This document shows positions 5,311-16,930 of a stretch of 26,481 nucleotides of DNA, in pieces. The stretch lies in the IMG/VR virus record IMGVR_UViG_3300023176_002353, positions 1-26,481 of that record, one strand, 5' to 3'. Position numbers and translations under genes: made by a program. The notes under the pieces are model-generated. The model was not told the origin of the DNA. It was given only the letters and a program-made list of their open reading frames with translations, and made no database searches. Numbering within the stretch: position 1 is the stretch's first letter; each line of letters begins with the position of its first letter. The DNA comes from a virus.

Positions 5311-5386
5311 TGGTGCCGCTTGAGAGACTTGAACTCCCGACCCACTGATTACAAATCAGTTGCTCTACCAGCTGAGCTAAAGCGGC
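5311..5386 (-). tRNA. tRNA-Thr (anticodon TGT)
   Basis: Complete cloverleaf on the minus strand: acceptor GCCGCTT pairs with AAGCGGC, D-arm GCTC..GAGC, anticodon stem ACTGA/TCAGT with loop TTTGTAA, T-loop TTCAAGT, and an encoded CCA end. It reads ACA, an A-ending codon. Confidence 0.97.
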
Positions 5387-5387
5387 G

Positions 5388-5465
5388 TTATCTTCTTACT
5401 CTACAAGTTGAACACCAATCATTGTGTCCTAACTCGTTTTTGCATTCTGTACATACTTTATTCAT
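5388..5465 (-). CDS. 25-residue Cys4 microprotein between two tRNA genes
   Basis: The 91-base gap between tRNA-Thr and tRNA-Ser encodes a 25-residue frame starting MNKVCTECKN. CTEC is at 5-8, CSTC at 18-21 and the tail is RVRR. Two CxxC pairs ten residues apart form a plausible minimal zinc knuckle, and the basic tail could touch RNA or DNA. There is no Shine-Dalgarno. Instead AATAAATA lies exactly 5 nt before the ATG, the same layout as gp17, gp13 and the zinc-ribbon gene, which supports real expression as a leaderless late message. The stop lies 1 base from the 5' end of tRNA-Thr. A chance ORF cannot be excluded. Confidence 0.55.
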   Translation of the reverse strand: MNKVCTECKNELGHNDWCSTCRVRR

Positions 5466-5470
5466 ATGTT

Positions 5471-5478
5471 TATTTATT
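5471..5478 (-). promoter_or_regulatory. T4-late-type box of the Cys4 micro-ORF
   Basis: AATAAATA on the minus strand, 5 nt before the micro-ORF ATG. Its first base is the last A of the CCA end of tRNA-Ser. Confidence 0.5.
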
Positions 5479-5567
5479 GGCGGAAGCGGTGGGATTCGAA
5501 CCCACGAGACGCTTTCACGTCTAACGGTTTAGTAGACCGGCGCTTTCAACCACTCAGCCACGCTTCC
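5478..5567 (-). tRNA. tRNA-Ser with unusual anticodon ACT
   Basis: A class II tRNA with a long variable arm (AGACG..CGTCT): acceptor GGAAGCG/CGCTTCC, T-loop TTCGAAT, encoded CCA. The anticodon loop is CTACTAA on stem CCGGT/ACCGT, giving ACT where bacterial tRNA-Ser for AGY codons has GCT. The outermost anticodon-stem pair is a C-T mismatch. The class and amino acid are clear from the shape and long arm; the anticodon is the oddity. Confidence 0.9.
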
Positions 5568-5573
5568 TATATT

Positions 5574-5648
5574 TGGCTCCAGATGTAGGGATCGAACCTA
5601 CGACCAATTGATTAACAGTCAACTGCTCTACCGCTGAGCTAATCTGGA
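5574..5648 (-). tRNA. tRNA-Asn (anticodon GTT)
   Basis: Acceptor TCCAGAT/ATCTGGA, anticodon loop CTGTTAA, T-loop TTCGATC and an encoded CCA. It is the first tRNA after the promoter at 5660-5688. Confidence 0.97.
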
Positions 5649-5659
5649 ATGTTAACAAC

Positions 5660-5688
5660 AATATAATATATAAACTATTGTTTGTCAA
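5660..5688 (-). promoter_or_regulatory. Sigma70-type promoter inside the tRNA cluster
   Basis: TTGACA (5683-5688), a 17-nt spacer and TATATT (5660-5665) on the minus strand. The expected start is only a few bases before the 5' end of tRNA-Asn. It should drive tRNA-Asn, tRNA-Ser, tRNA-Thr and probably the RNA-like block. Confidence 0.85.
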
Positions 5689-5699
5689 CAATTATTTTA

Positions 5700-5776
5700 T
5701 GGTGCTCCCGATAGGACTCGAACCTATGACCAACCCGTTATGAGCGGGGAGCTCTAACCAACTGAGCTACAGGAGC
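5700..5776 (-). tRNA. tRNA with CAT anticodon (elongator Met or Ile2)
   Basis: Acceptor GCTCCTG/CGGGAGC with a G1-C72 pair, so it is not an initiator. The anticodon loop is CTCATAA, and a CCA is encoded. The TTGGTC variable region resembles E. coli tRNA-Ile2, where C34 is modified to lysidine to read ATA. An Ile2 identity would suit the AT-rich codon use here, but Met is not excluded. Confidence 0.92.
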
Positions 5777-5782
5777 GTTATT

Positions 5783-5868
5783 TGGTGCCCTCTCCCGGAC
5801 TCGAACCGGGACGCCGTAACCGGCGAGAGATTTTAAGTCTCTTGTGTCTACCATTCCACCAAGAGGGC
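5783..5868 (-). tRNA. tRNA-Leu (anticodon TAA)
   Basis: Class II tRNA with a GCCGGTTACGGCG variable arm, acceptor GCCCTCT/AGAGGGC, anticodon stem AGAGA/TCTCT with loop CTTAAAA and an encoded CCA. It reads TTA. Confidence 0.97.
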
Positions 5869-5879
5869 AATATAACTTA

Positions 5880-5956
5880 TGGCGATCACGGAAGGACTCG
5901 AACCCTCAACCTATTGATTAGAAGTCAATTGCTCTATCCAGTTGAGCTACGTGACC
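5880..5956 (-). tRNA. tRNA-Arg (anticodon TCT)
   Basis: Acceptor GGTCACG/CGTGATC (one G-T pair), anticodon stem ATTGA/TCAAT with loop CTTCTAA, T-loop TTCGAGT and an encoded CCA. It reads AGA. It is the first tRNA after the protein gene ending at 5965. Confidence 0.97.
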
Positions 5957-12145: not shown

Positions 12146-14129
<1,984 letters not shown>

Positions 14130-14134
14130 ACTAT

Positions 14135-14142
14135 TACTTATC
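14135..14142 (-). promoter_or_regulatory. T4-late-type promoter of the 136-aa gene (leaderless)
   Basis: GATAAGTA followed by ATAGT and ATG on the minus strand, nearly identical to the gp17 promoter. It lies just after the strong terminator at 14150-14179. Confidence 0.62.
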
Positions 14143-14149
14143 AATAAAA

Positions 14150-14225: not shown

Positions 14226-14522
14226 TTAATTTTTGTACCTATCACTGACAGGTTTTGTCATTCTTATTGTTTGTGGAGATAGAGCTGGCTGACCATGAAC
14301 ATATGGTTCTCCACTTGGTTCAAATGACTGCCCATCTGAACTAATTTTACTAGTTTGTGCATCACCACCTGTTAATCTTGTTGCTGTTTTTGCATCTAAT
14401 CCTTGTAAAAATGCATTAATTTTAATTTGATTATTGGTAGCTAGTACATCAGCATATTGCTGATCTATACTTGCTTCATTAATGCCTGCTAATTTTTTAA
14501 TTCTTGCAAGATCATCATTCAT
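14226..14522 (-). CDS. Hypothetical protein with KLAGI motif (98 aa)
   Basis: A 98-residue protein beginning MNDDLARIKKLAGINEASID. The IKKLAGINE motif near its start is repeated twice in the protein encoded just upstream. The remainder is polar and low in structure (TGGDAQTSKISSDGQSFEP). Its start overlaps the TAA of that gene by one base (TAATG). It is probably a late, capsid-associated or core protein, by context only. The terminator at 14150-14179 follows. Confidence 0.75.
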   Translation of the reverse strand: MNDDLARIKKLAGINEASIDQQYADVLATNNQIKINAFLQGLDAKTATRLTGGDAQTSKISSDGQSFEPSGEPYVHGQPALSPQTIRMTKPVSDRYKN

Positions 14523-15874
14523 TAGCGTAACTTCCTAAAATAATCTGGATTAGGTTTCGGAGGATTTGTATTAAATGGGTTTGGCCTTGGTCCGCCGAAT
14601 TTTGGCCAAATTTTGTCCTGGTCACCTTTTATATCAAATTTTTCACCTGGTTTTAAAATATATTCTGGATTTGGAAAAATTCCGCCGCCTGATCCGTCTC
14701 CTGAATATGGTAGATATTTCGGTATGCCATCATCGCCTTTAATATCAAATACACTAGGTCTATCACGACGTTCTGGACGTTCACGTGGGTCAATTGTACC
14801 CATTTCTTCAATACCTGCTAGTTTCTTTAATATATTTAAAGATTCATCAACATCGTCGTCTTCTTCTTTGTCTTTTGCAGCTTTTTTCATTGACTCTTCT
14901 TTGTCGCCGTCGCCGTCGATATCAATGTAGTCTGGTTTTGCACCTTCGTCTAAACTTTCGTTTACACTTTCCCATGTACCAGCATTTTCTTCGCCGTATT
15001 TCTTAATAAAGGCTGCTTTACTCATTTTTTCAGCATCATCTATCATTGCATCTTTAACAGCGCCTTCTTTGACTTTGTGTACTTTTCCGTCAACTTCGAA
15101 TTCATCTGCGCCTGCTGCTTTTGCTTTTGCAAGTGCACCTGAGTATGCATTACCTTCGCCTACTTCTGGTTCATCGATTTCAACTGATTCTCCTACTTCT
15201 AGCATTTTTTCAAACATAGCAATTGCTCTTTCACGTACATCAGTATCAGTTGCTTCTTCAAATTCTGGATCTTCTGCAAGATTATCAAGTGACTGGAGCA
15301 TTATTTTTAATGCTTGTTCTTTGCTTTCATAGTCACCGTCCATTAATAAAACGGCAGCGTCTTCTACACGCATCCCAACTTCTTCATTGCCTTTTTTTGT
15401 AAACATGCCGTAATCATGAGTATGCGGGTTAGCATCTTCTACATTGCTTTCATAGTCTCCGATTGCTAGATTATAATCTGGTGCACCAATACTTGCTTCA
15501 GCTTTTAGTTTACCGCCAAAACCTTTTGCAGGTGTTCTAATTTGTTTAAAGTATGCTGCAATTTCTTTGTCCAAGTTTGGTGTTGCAGATTCTGCTTTAA
15601 ATGCCGCATATGCTTCTGTTACACTTTCTACTGTGTGGTCAGGATATACTTCTTCGTCTACAGTAACGTGATCACCTTTTGCTTTCAAATAACGGCGCAG
15701 ACTTAAATCTGCATCGCTTCCCATTGTTGCCATTGGGTCATCCATCATTTCTTCTTGTGGTCTTGTTGTTGCATCTTCAAATCCTGCGCCATCTGCTTCT
15801 ACAGTTGGCTCTAGCTTGTTTAAAACTTCTGGGTTTACGATGCCTGCTAGTTTAACTAAGTCTCTTAAATCCAT
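14522..15874 (-). CDS. Large acidic hypothetical protein with KLAGI motifs and a calcium-loop-like segment
   Basis: A 450-residue, strongly acidic protein. LVKLAGIVN lies at residues 6-14 and LKKLAGIEE near 348. Between them, at about 315-330, YIDIDGDGDKEESMKKA has the Asp spacing of an EF-hand-like calcium loop, a segment I associate with prohead-associated proteins of marine phages. The C-terminal ~100 residues are Pro/Gly-rich (DGSGGGIFPNP, then NPFNTNPPKPNP). No enzyme motif is seen. The gene sits between head and packaging genes, and internal head protein is my best guess. The start at 15872-15874 follows the preceding gene by 4 nt. Confidence 0.8.
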   Translation of the reverse strand: MDLRDLVKLAGIVNPEVLNKLEPTVEADGAGFEDATTRPQEEMMDDPMATMGSDADLSLRRYLKAKGDHVTVDEEVYPDHTVESVTEAYAAFKAESATPNLDKEIAAYFKQIRTPAKGFGGKLKAEASIGAPDYNLAIGDYESNVEDANPHTHDYGMFTKKGNEEVGMRVEDAAVLLMDGDYESKEQALKIMLQSLDNLAEDPEFEEATDTDVRERAIAMFEKMLEVGESVEIDEPEVGEGNAYSGALAKAKAAGADEFEVDGKVHKVKEGAVKDAMIDDAEKMSKAAFIKKYGEENAGTWESVNESLDEGAKPDYIDIDGDGDKEESMKKAAKDKEEDDDVDESLNILKKLAGIEEMGTIDPRERPERRDRPSVFDIKGDDGIPKYLPYSGDGSGGGIFPNPEYILKPGEKFDIKGDQDKIWPKFGGPRPNPFNTNPPKPNPDYFRKLR

Positions 15875-15878
15875 TTTA

Positions 15879-16376
15879 TTATACCTTATACTCTGTGTTT
15901 AATTCAGACTTTGGTAAGTTTTTAACAAACTTTTCTACAAATTCGTTACCGTAGTTATCACTGTGATCAACTTTTTCTTCTTCACTGTAATCTGCGTCTG
16001 CTAGTACACTTTTACCTTCTTCTGGTTCATCCTCATCTAACGGATGAATTTCTTCAAACTCACCTTCATTATACACACGGATTGTTCCGTAATGAATGTT
16101 GGCTGCATTTGCTAATTCTTCTTGTAGTGCAGGAGGTGTTGTTGGCAGTTTAACTGCTACCTCAAATGTTGTTACTGCACTAGGACCAATATTACCAAAG
16201 CCAGCAGGGCTTTTTTGGATAATACTTGTTTTTGGTGCACTAACACTTTCTACATTATATCTTGCAAGATATGCTTCAATCTTGTCCATTGCTTCCTCTG
16301 TCATAGGTGCAACTGTCTGCACTTTAAACTTGTAAGTTTTTTCAGATTCGGCCAAATATTGTGCTAAACTTTTCAT
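15879..16376 (-). CDS. Probable internal head protein with capsid-targeting-like N-terminus (165 aa)
   Basis: A 165-residue protein beginning MKSLAQYLAESEKTY. The first 10 residues resemble the T4 internal-protein leader (IPIII begins MKTYQEFIAEA), which targets proteins into the prohead and is cut by protease gp21 after an (L/I)xE site; here LAE precedes S11. The middle (IEAYLARYNVESVSAPK, then TTFEVAVKL) looks like an alpha/beta domain, and the tail is acidic (LDEDEPEEG). I do not know the family's function. A late box at 16398-16405 and GAGGAA serve its expression. Confidence 0.78.
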   Translation of the reverse strand: MKSLAQYLAESEKTYKFKVQTVAPMTEEAMDKIEAYLARYNVESVSAPKTSIIQKSPAGFGNIGPSAVTTFEVAVKLPTTPPALQEELANAANIHYGTIRVYNEGEFEEIHPLDEDEPEEGKSVLADADYSEEEKVDHSDNYGNEFVEKFVKNLPKSELNTEYKV

Positions 16377-16396
16377 AATATCATTCCTCGTTATAG

Positions 16397-16930
16397 TTAT
16401 TTATCAGAATCATTTGATTTAATACGGTCTACAAGGTCGTTAAGTAAACTGCTTCTATCAAAAAATTCCTCTGCCTCACCCTCAATTGCAGTTTCACCTT
16501 TAGCATTTTCTTTAGCAATTTGATGTTCAAGTTTCTTTTCTTCTAAATCTAATTTACGTTTGCGCATTTGCATTTCGATCATCTTTAGTTTTTTATCCAT
16601 CTTTGCTGTTTTAGCAGTAATAGCATTTGTCATCATTTTACTAGCACTATCAAACACAGGTGCAGCATGCCTATCTTCTACATTTTGTCCCAAGTCCATC
16701 AAGTCTTGAAACGCATTTATTGCTTGTTTAGCATAGTCGTCCATTTCGTGGTCTAATGCTTCTAAGTCACGGACAGCAGGAAGTGCTGCATCAATTTTGT
16801 CTACTGTGTCCATTGTTTCACGTAGTTTGTCTAAATCAAAACCAGTTTCTTCTTCTTGTATTGGTTGTTCGATCTCCTCACGTTCATTCATCGGAGGCAA
16901 ATCAAATACTTCTTCAATTTTTCTACTCAT
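16397..16930 (-). CDS. 16: Probable terminase small subunit gp16
   Basis: The 177 residues match the size of T4 gp16 (164), which recognises DNA and stimulates the gp17 ATPase and packaging. The acidic first ~50 residues are followed by a helical hairpin core (DDYAKQAINAFQDLMD, then APVFDSASKMMTNAITAKTA). A long charged coiled-coil follows (KMIEMQMRKRKLDLEEKKL), the same order as in gp16 proteins of marine phages. Sequence identity cannot be shown by eye, so another coiled-coil head protein is possible. The ATG overlaps gp4 as ATGA. Four genes separate it from gp17. Confidence 0.6.
   Translation of the reverse strand: MSRKIEEVFDLPPMNEREEIEQPIQEEETGFDLDKLRETMDTVDKIDAALPAVRDLEALDHEMDDYAKQAINAFQDLMDLGQNVEDRHAAPVFDSASKMMTNAITAKTAKMDKKLKMIEMQMRKRKLDLEEKKLEHQIAKENAKGETAIEGEAEEFFDRSSLLNDLVDRIKSNDSDK
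16398..16405 (-). promoter_or_regulatory. T4-late-type box upstream of the 165-aa head protein
   Basis: GATAAATA on the minus strand within the last codons of the gp16-like gene, 21 nt before the next ATG, with GAGGAA in between. Confidence 0.5.

Follow-up and report, generated by a model that had tools for sequence, protein, structure and literature searches.

The 165-residue protein encoded in the window (the whole 26,481-base virus record analyzed here, a T4-like jumbo-phage fragment with T4-type genes) is probably a conserved internal head or core protein of T4-like jumbo phages that carries a capsid-targeting propeptide of the T4 type. In the proposed pathway, residues 1 to 10 would form a short helix acting as a T4-type capsid-targeting sequence (CTS), with residues 4 and 7 (L and Y) docking the protein on the assembling prohead core. 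A gp21-type S77 protease would cut at LAE (residues 8 to 10), presumably also in the window phage itself. The leader is probably cut after prohead entry, and the cut would free, within the head, a mature ferredoxin-like domain (residues about 11 to 105) plus an acidic tail. There the mature protein would act in head morphogenesis or DNA organization, and not in host takeover; a role in the head is favored because of the conservation and the gene neighborhood of the 165-residue gene.

The original prediction had pointed to a 165-residue reading frame with a leader at this position. The frame is borne out: it lies on the minus strand, and its product starts MKSLAQYLAESEK, with LAE at residues 8 to 10 and S as residue 11. 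A CTS is recognized as an N-terminal leader of 10 to 19 residues ending in L/I-x-E, and MKSLAQYLAE before S is such a leader, its removal being predicted.

Gene order and virion association

The window genes run in a T4-type order: sheath, tube, a second tube-like gene, head completion gp4, a gp16-like gene, the 165-residue gene, a 450-residue acidic gene, a 98-residue gene, a 141-residue ORF, large terminase, a 448-residue gene of virion-structural type (phrog_13484), and genes for a single-stranded DNA-binding protein and a UvsX-like protein. Several of these names are presumptive, taken from gene order, and the 177-residue gene is presumed to be gp16 (small terminase) purely from its place in that order. 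Within the phage collection, the closest counterparts of the window terminase come from jumbo phages: PA5oct and its kin at 56%, Phosso at 53%, and Atu_ph07 at 49%. The window also contains a cluster of six tRNA genes on the minus strand at 5311-5956 (Thr, Ser, Asn, Met, Leu, and Arg).

Table 1. Positions of the features discussed, numbered along the window
Feature	Position	Strand	Basis
165-aa CDS, probable conserved internal head protein (phrog_14802-like) with CTS-like leader	15879..16376	-	ORF list, profile match, conservation
Leader codons 1-10, MKSLAQYLAE	16347..16376	-	conservation, leader profile, T4 CTS map (PMC9026906, in part)
Predicted gp21-type cut after E10	between 16347 and 16346	-	conservation, leader profile, T4 CTS map (PMC9026906, in part)
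GAGGAA, Shine-Dalgarno-like, upstream of the ATG of the 165-aa CDS	16384..16389	-	sequence
Predicted ferredoxin-like domain of the mature 165-aa protein, residues 15-105	16062..16334	-	model, mean pLDDT 60.8
450-aa acidic slot protein (102 D+E, 58 K+R), start MDLRDLVKLAGIVNPE	14522..15874	-	
N-terminal LAGI motif LRDLVKLAGI, residues 3-12 of the 450-aa protein	15839..15868	-	
Internal LAGI motif LNILKKLAGIEE, residues 346-357 of the 450-aa protein	14804..14839	-	
98-aa slot protein, start MNDDLARIKKLAGINEAS	14226..14522	-	
LARIKKLAGINE, residues 5-16 of the 98-aa protein: LAGI motif running into a putative I-x-E|A gp21-type site	14475..14510	-	
141-aa ORF, TTG start, end of slot, without tag	13719..14144	-	
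Large terminase (gp17-like), slot border	12149..13705	-	
177-aa gene in the gp16 (small terminase) position; phrog_16202, unknown function	16397..16930	-	

Residues 1 to 153 of the 165-residue protein match positions 1 to 155 of the 179 in profile phrog_14802, "virion structural protein" (E 3e-06). Orthologs are present in 11 named phages: Phosso, PA5oct, Atu_ph07, 121Q, RaK2, GAP32, XaC1, XbC2, Vibrio 2.275, CBB, and Kaldavass. The family has one conserved domain. In all 11 phages the ortholog sits behind tail-tube and head-completion genes (the neighbors in Vibrio 2.275 are labeled hypothetical), with ribonucleotide-reductase genes inserted before it in Phosso and Atu_ph07. A terminase gene follows soon after it in PA5oct, Phosso, Atu_ph07, and the marine group; none was found close behind it in the stretches covered of the 121Q/RaK2/CBB group. 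The record label is (virion) structural in 8 of the 11 and hypothetical in 3. Marine orthologs were retrieved on 10 contigs in a first scan; a second gave 33, partly the same, and a scan that started from a distant member gave 79. With the Vibrio ortholog as query no relatives were retrieved, and with that of Atu_ph07 a single locus of the same length and 100% identity. The annotated start of Atu_ph07 gp113 (L014 11592-12347) lies 29 codons downstream of the conserved ATG, from which the frame opens MKTLQDYLTES.

Packaging in the virion, which the original prediction placed more specifically in the head, is supported by mass spectrometry on orthologs. The CBB ortholog, CBB_210, was identified in virions by 13 unique peptides with 60.5% coverage (Table 4 in the accessible part of PMC5259590), and the record of PA5oct gp282 carries the entry "ESI-MS/MS", marking it as a virion protein. 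No N-terminal data on virion orthologs were found in the accessible part of the CBB virion study (PMC5259590). The gene that follows the ortholog in the 121Q/RaK2 group and in Vibrio 2.275, represented by 121Q_558 (L016 6499-7041), has (L/M)xE shortly before PYSR or PYGL near its N-terminus. From its sequence, this product is a possible further protease-cut head protein.

Conservation of the leader

The gp21-type (L/I)xE site read in the leader by the original prediction recurs, as a predicted site, throughout the marine family: [LI]xE occupies residues 8 to 10 in all 33 near and all 79 distant relatives, and residue 11 is S in 102 and A in 10 of these 112. E10 is invariant in all 112 and in a 47-row alignment, where it ranks first in conservation among 114 positions, S11 eighth, and L8 ninth. 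The 33 near loci were pooled from two scans, leaving out duplicates and two loci with missing starts, and one search pattern of the second scan includes E10-S11. The 79 distant loci were fetched by peptide patterns without residues 1 to 11, and thus the conservation of their leaders was not selected for. Compared over 60 residues, the near loci give 18 different sequences and the distant ones 44; compared over 12 residues, they give 7 and 29 different leaders, respectively.

Entropy within the leader is low at positions 2, 4, 7, 8, 10, and 11 and higher at 3, 5, 6, and 9. The low positions follow the map of T4 IPIII, in which targeting depends mainly on residues 4 and 7 and processing on 8 and 10 (PMC9026906, in the text available). 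Among the named phages, the site at 8 to 10 is present in 5 of 11 (Atu_ph07, 121Q, GAP32, CBB, and Vibrio 2.275). It is missing in the other 6, which have LTD (RaK2, XbC2, Kaldavass), LTA (XaC1), LSS (Phosso), or YDA (PA5oct); cleavage at this position is therefore not universal. The XaC1 ortholog has LQE at residues 4 to 6, and the PA5oct ortholog is virion-associated despite its YDA.

Likeness to T4 head substrates

A leader profile was built from 26 leaders of distant marine relatives, with T4 excluded from training. The window leader scores 21.4 and comes first of 519 possible starts in the window, the next scoring 5.4; a high score is to be expected for an ortholog of the profile members. 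Among 3,030 T4 starts, the same profile places gp61.1 first, IPIII third, IPII fourth, gp24 sixth, and IPI seventh. Ranks 2 and 5 fall to starts inside and opposite nrdB that are not preceded by a Shine-Dalgarno-like sequence, and the internal one outranks IPIII. In a control of 303,000 shuffled T4 starts, 18 reach the score of IPIII, 90 that of IPI, and none the 21.4 of the window. A profile of 42 family leaders, run against 3,021 T4 start codons on both strands, ranks IPIII 1, IPII 2, gp61.1 4, gp24 10, and IPI 11. The match to the T4 internal-protein leader, as originally proposed, is thereby confirmed at the level of sequence: the likeness exceeds chance.

This resemblance is carried by the leader and does not reflect common descent of the whole protein, since the mature parts are unrelated. 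When the family is compared with T4 IPIII by hhalign, residues 1 to 12 alone align. Homology of the mature domain to IPIII or IPI was accordingly rejected, nothing meaningful being found with IPI, as was homology to the T4 core protein gp68 (hhalign probability 0.15%).

T4 gp61.1, which tops the distant-leader profile, is a hypothetical protein of 54 residues (NC_000866 18966-19130, minus strand; L221) that starts MKTFKEFIKED. It may, judging from this start, be an unrecognized head-packed protein.

The gp21-type protease

The original prediction had asked for a gp21-like protease elsewhere in the genome. Such a protease is encoded by every named relative and was not found on the window, which is a 26.5-kb fragment of its genome. 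The S77 family profile of T4 gp21, PF03420, was run on 14 records and exceeds its curated cut-off in the 12 that belong to named phages; the other two, fragments G000 and G001, lack it. A second set comprised T4, which is positive, and 11 marine fragments, of which three are positive (G004, G006, and G008); each of these three contigs carries both the S77 protease and a distant member of the 165-residue family. The protease was not found on the near-relative contig pieces G002, G003, G011, and G012. When 12 of these S77 proteases are aligned, T4 positions H85 and S140 do not vary.

Predicted structure of the mature domain

An AlphaFold2 model based on 47 orthologs has modest confidence (mean pLDDT 60.8), with ten-residue blocks at 63 to 79 across residues 11 to 100. 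It shows a separate helix at residues 4 to 10, followed by a strand-helix-strand-strand-strand-helix-strand order to residue 103 and an acidic, low-confidence tail. Matches found with VIA-align run mostly from residues 11-15 to about 105 and are ferredoxin/ACT/ribosomal-S6-like (best Z 8.2). Because these matches begin at about residues 11-15, the folded domain would start directly behind the predicted cut; the ferredoxin/ACT/S6 likeness itself may be just a common arrangement.

Against viral models, Foldseek retrieves Atu_ph07 and uncharacterized phage proteins. It also gives a weak match to Ip7 of phage MX01 (E 2.8e-4, TM 0.28/0.42), which the shared leader may drive. Against the PDB it gives no match at E 0.001 or better. 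An enzyme or defense domain was sought and rejected: Pfam gives nothing over cut-off for the 165-residue protein and two orthologs, and a PDB sequence search with the 165-residue protein gives nothing below E 0.06.

The variable slot before the terminase

The interval between the 165-residue gene and the terminase is a variable slot. The 21 near loci with both borders comprise 15 distinct slots with 40 ORFs, and the slot of locus L003 contains the window's own slot ORFs beside a terminase 100% identical to that of the window. A LAGI-type motif lies near the N-terminus of 18 of the 40 slot ORFs and in the last residues of 32, where it forms a tail of the type LxxL(K/R)KLAG(I/L). A CTS-type leader, scored allowing an offset of up to 2 residues, is present on 8 of the 40, all of which also have the C-terminal tail; 36 of the 40 have at least one of these three features. 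The slot proteins examined are mostly acidic.

By blastp, the 8 leader-tagged slot proteins share modules and form one mosaic family, so the leader has been reused on one further family, not on eight. Behind the leader they have no blastp match to the 165-residue family at E 0.1. On contigs G002 and G003, the other starts that score above 10 on the leader profile are those of slot genes only (15.8 and 16.6, with the next at 5.3 and 4.5). In the window, the leader profile reveals no second CTS-type leader among the 519 starts. The 450-residue protein has N-terminal and internal LAGI copies and the 98-residue protein an N-terminal copy that runs into INE before A; a C-terminal tail was found on neither. 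Some tagged slot proteins have cysteine pairs (L055 6263-6706, L047 9886-10230, and L059 7577-8029), and two such proteins weakly resemble endonuclease VII, below cut-off or at E 0.007-0.015.

The strict gp21 site [LI]xE[ASG] is not enriched in the slot proteins of any of four sets (140, 64, 216, and 108 of 300 shuffles reach the observed count). Looser patterns are enriched in three relatives and not clearly in the window: the count for [LIVMF]xEA is reached by 0, 0, and 10 of 300 shuffles in the relatives and 39 in the window, and that for [LIV]xEA by 3, 0, and 4 in the relatives and 71 in the window. Since these looser patterns were written after the sequences had been seen, the idea of a polyprotein with many cut sites is weak.

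A tail shared with the prohead scaffold

The scaffold gene lies directly behind the S77 protease and is annotated as scaffold in Serratia phage BF. In 10 of 12 named relatives the scaffold ends in the same type of tail, as LRRLAGIK in PA5oct, LTKIAGIRK in Vibrio, and LDVLSGINKK in 121Q, with looser versions in CBB (RNAGISKNR) and XaC1 (SRAGIRK). In Phosso and Atu_ph07, no such scaffold gene was found in the available stretch behind the protease. Three marine scaffolds end IRRLAGI, IRRLAGLK, and IQRLAGLK, and T4 gp22 does not have the tail. Two scans gave 81 scaffold relatives (80, the best of 593, plus 1), and all 81, or 61 of 61 distinct sequences, have [LI][AS]G[ILVM] followed by no more than 4 residues as their C-terminus. 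On the prohead scaffolds of marine T4-like phages (L173 4476-5567; L222-L302) this tail is of a (K/R)RLAG(I/L) type.

Across seven genomes or contigs, 13 of 1,729 ORFs end in a LAGI-type tail: 8 slot proteins, 3 scaffolds, and one member each of phrog_13138 and phrog_13484, two families both labeled "virion structural". Individual genomes give 0 of 235 ORFs in T4, 1 of 543 in 121Q, and 1 of 383 in PA5oct, and shuffled controls average 0.04 to 0.18 per set, with at most 2. These counts describe rather than test, since the pattern was written after examples had been seen. The tail is not limited to slot and scaffold proteins, because the 157-residue phrog_13138 protein of G002 (L162 12856-13329), encoded far from the slot, ends LERVRSLAGL. 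A large G004 protein (L170 5385-7430) with a phrog_13484 match and a LysM domain (Pfam 1.4e-6) ends LKRLSGV. A large Phosso protein (L002 17756-20686), encoded directly behind the terminase, ends RLRKLAGI, and the window phrog_13484 protein in that same position has no such tail.

From the sequences, the slot is likely to be a cargo bay, with the leader type and the scaffold tail placed on changing neighbors. Its cargoes may stay in the head, act as additional scaffold, or be injected. A broader proposal, plausible though tentative, is that marine jumbo phages run two-address loading of prohead cargo, using a gp21-cut N-terminal leader and an LxxL(K/R)KLAG(I/L) helix shared with the scaffold C-terminus. 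A recombining slot cassette would supply acidic, sometimes cysteine-rich modules co-assembled with the scaffold, and these modules could be released in the head. The LAGI helix may be C-terminal, N-terminal, or internal in the cargo; in the latter two positions an xE protease site often follows directly, and a module could be released there inside the head.

Alternative explanations

The original prediction favored an early host-takeover effector over a simple structural part. As such an effector, the protein would be packed by means of its leader, cut free, ejected with the DNA, and then act on the host like T4 IPI or Alt. T4 proteins with such a leader are indeed ejected, and IPI and Alt act on the host (PMC9026906 and PMC3012670, in the portions available); the weak Foldseek match to Ip7, possibly leader-driven, points the same way. 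However, tail-tube and head-completion genes precede the gene in 11 of 11 named relatives, its label is structural in 8 of 11, and it encodes one conserved domain, unlike the T4 internal proteins, which are highly diverse according to the text available of PMC3012670. In addition, profile, Pfam, PDB sequence, and Foldseek PDB searches found no enzyme or effector domain. An effector is thus an unlikely reading, and the early-effector label, drawn by analogy with IPI and Alt, is a weak one for a conserved, syntenic head-cluster gene.

Other explanations concern the leader. If it were simply the helix that opens the protein's own fold or assembly interface, it would be neither a targeting tag nor a protease site. 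It is inherited together with the domain, the site at 8 to 10 is absent in 6 of 11 named relatives, and the PA5oct virion protein does without it. Yet a slot family (8 of the 40 slot ORFs) and T4 internal proteins, all unrelated to this protein, have such a leader too, and few stretches of the marine relatives are as strongly conserved as LxE followed by S or A; an own-fold helix is quite improbable. Alternatively, the leader might be a tag that docks the protein into the core and stays, uncut, in the mature head. T4 mutants with Asp at position 10 keep targeting and are blocked in processing (PMC9026906, in the text available), and three named relatives naturally have Asp there. Nevertheless, E10 is invariant in 112 of 112 near and distant marine relatives, and a tag that is never cut is likewise quite improbable. 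The reading of an internal head protein with a cleavable, T4-type leader is preferred.

If correct, this reading would extend the T4 capsid-targeting address to phages of the 121Q/CBB type and to marine jumbo phages that have not been cultured. The CTS is already known from T4 (the available part of PMC9026906). In the open literature searched, a CTS in RaK2-like or cyanophage-type phages was not evident among the matches listed, and those listed for jumbo phages concern SPN3US. A scaffold C-terminal tail as a cargo motif was not found there either, as judged by title or the start of the abstract. Neither the spread of the CTS to the marine jumbo and 121Q/CBB-type group nor the scaffold-tail tag, which is proposed as a second address, was found in this literature. 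The CTS also becomes searchable, a simple leader profile recovering known T4 head substrates from raw start codons, and the interval from the 165-residue gene to the terminase becomes a place to find new head-packed proteins by their tags. The natural Asp-10 variants of RaK2, XbC2, and Kaldavass are suited to separating targeting from cutting.

Comparison with known systems

The closest counterpart of the leader is the gp21-cut CTS of T4 IPIII, IPII, and IPI (MKTYQEFIAE type). Both are ten-residue N-terminal leaders with MK at the start, an aromatic or aliphatic residue at 4 and 7, L or I at 8, E at 10, and a small residue at 11. In the relatives, as in T4, the leader is found on a second, unrelated family, and a gp21-type protease is encoded. 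The carrier differs: here the leader is borne by a head protein that is conserved and syntenic and whose mature domain is another one. Position 4, Y in T4, is F or L, and some relatives have lost the cut site. The T4 internal proteins are a diverse set in which the CTS alone is conserved, whereas the 165-residue family has one domain and a kept neighborhood.

The phrog_14802 orthologs of RaK2, 121Q, CBB, PA5oct, and Atu_ph07 share with the window protein a homologous domain and the same upstream gene neighborhood, and are virion proteins. Compared with the versions in Phosso, Atu_ph07, and PA5oct, the window protein has a shorter C-terminus. Its LxE is intact.

Slot proteins of the relatives add a C-terminal tail that T4 lacks. 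The gp22-type prohead scaffold of these phages (phrog_10922, in PA5oct and the marine group) shares this LAG(I/L)-type tail with most slot proteins, which otherwise were not matched with it. T4 Alt, which gp21 processes at both its N- and C-termini (PMC9026906, in the text available), shows that head cargo can have a propeptide at each end. Unlike Alt, the slot proteins of the relatives share their C-terminal tail with the scaffold, and a cut before that tail is hypothetical.
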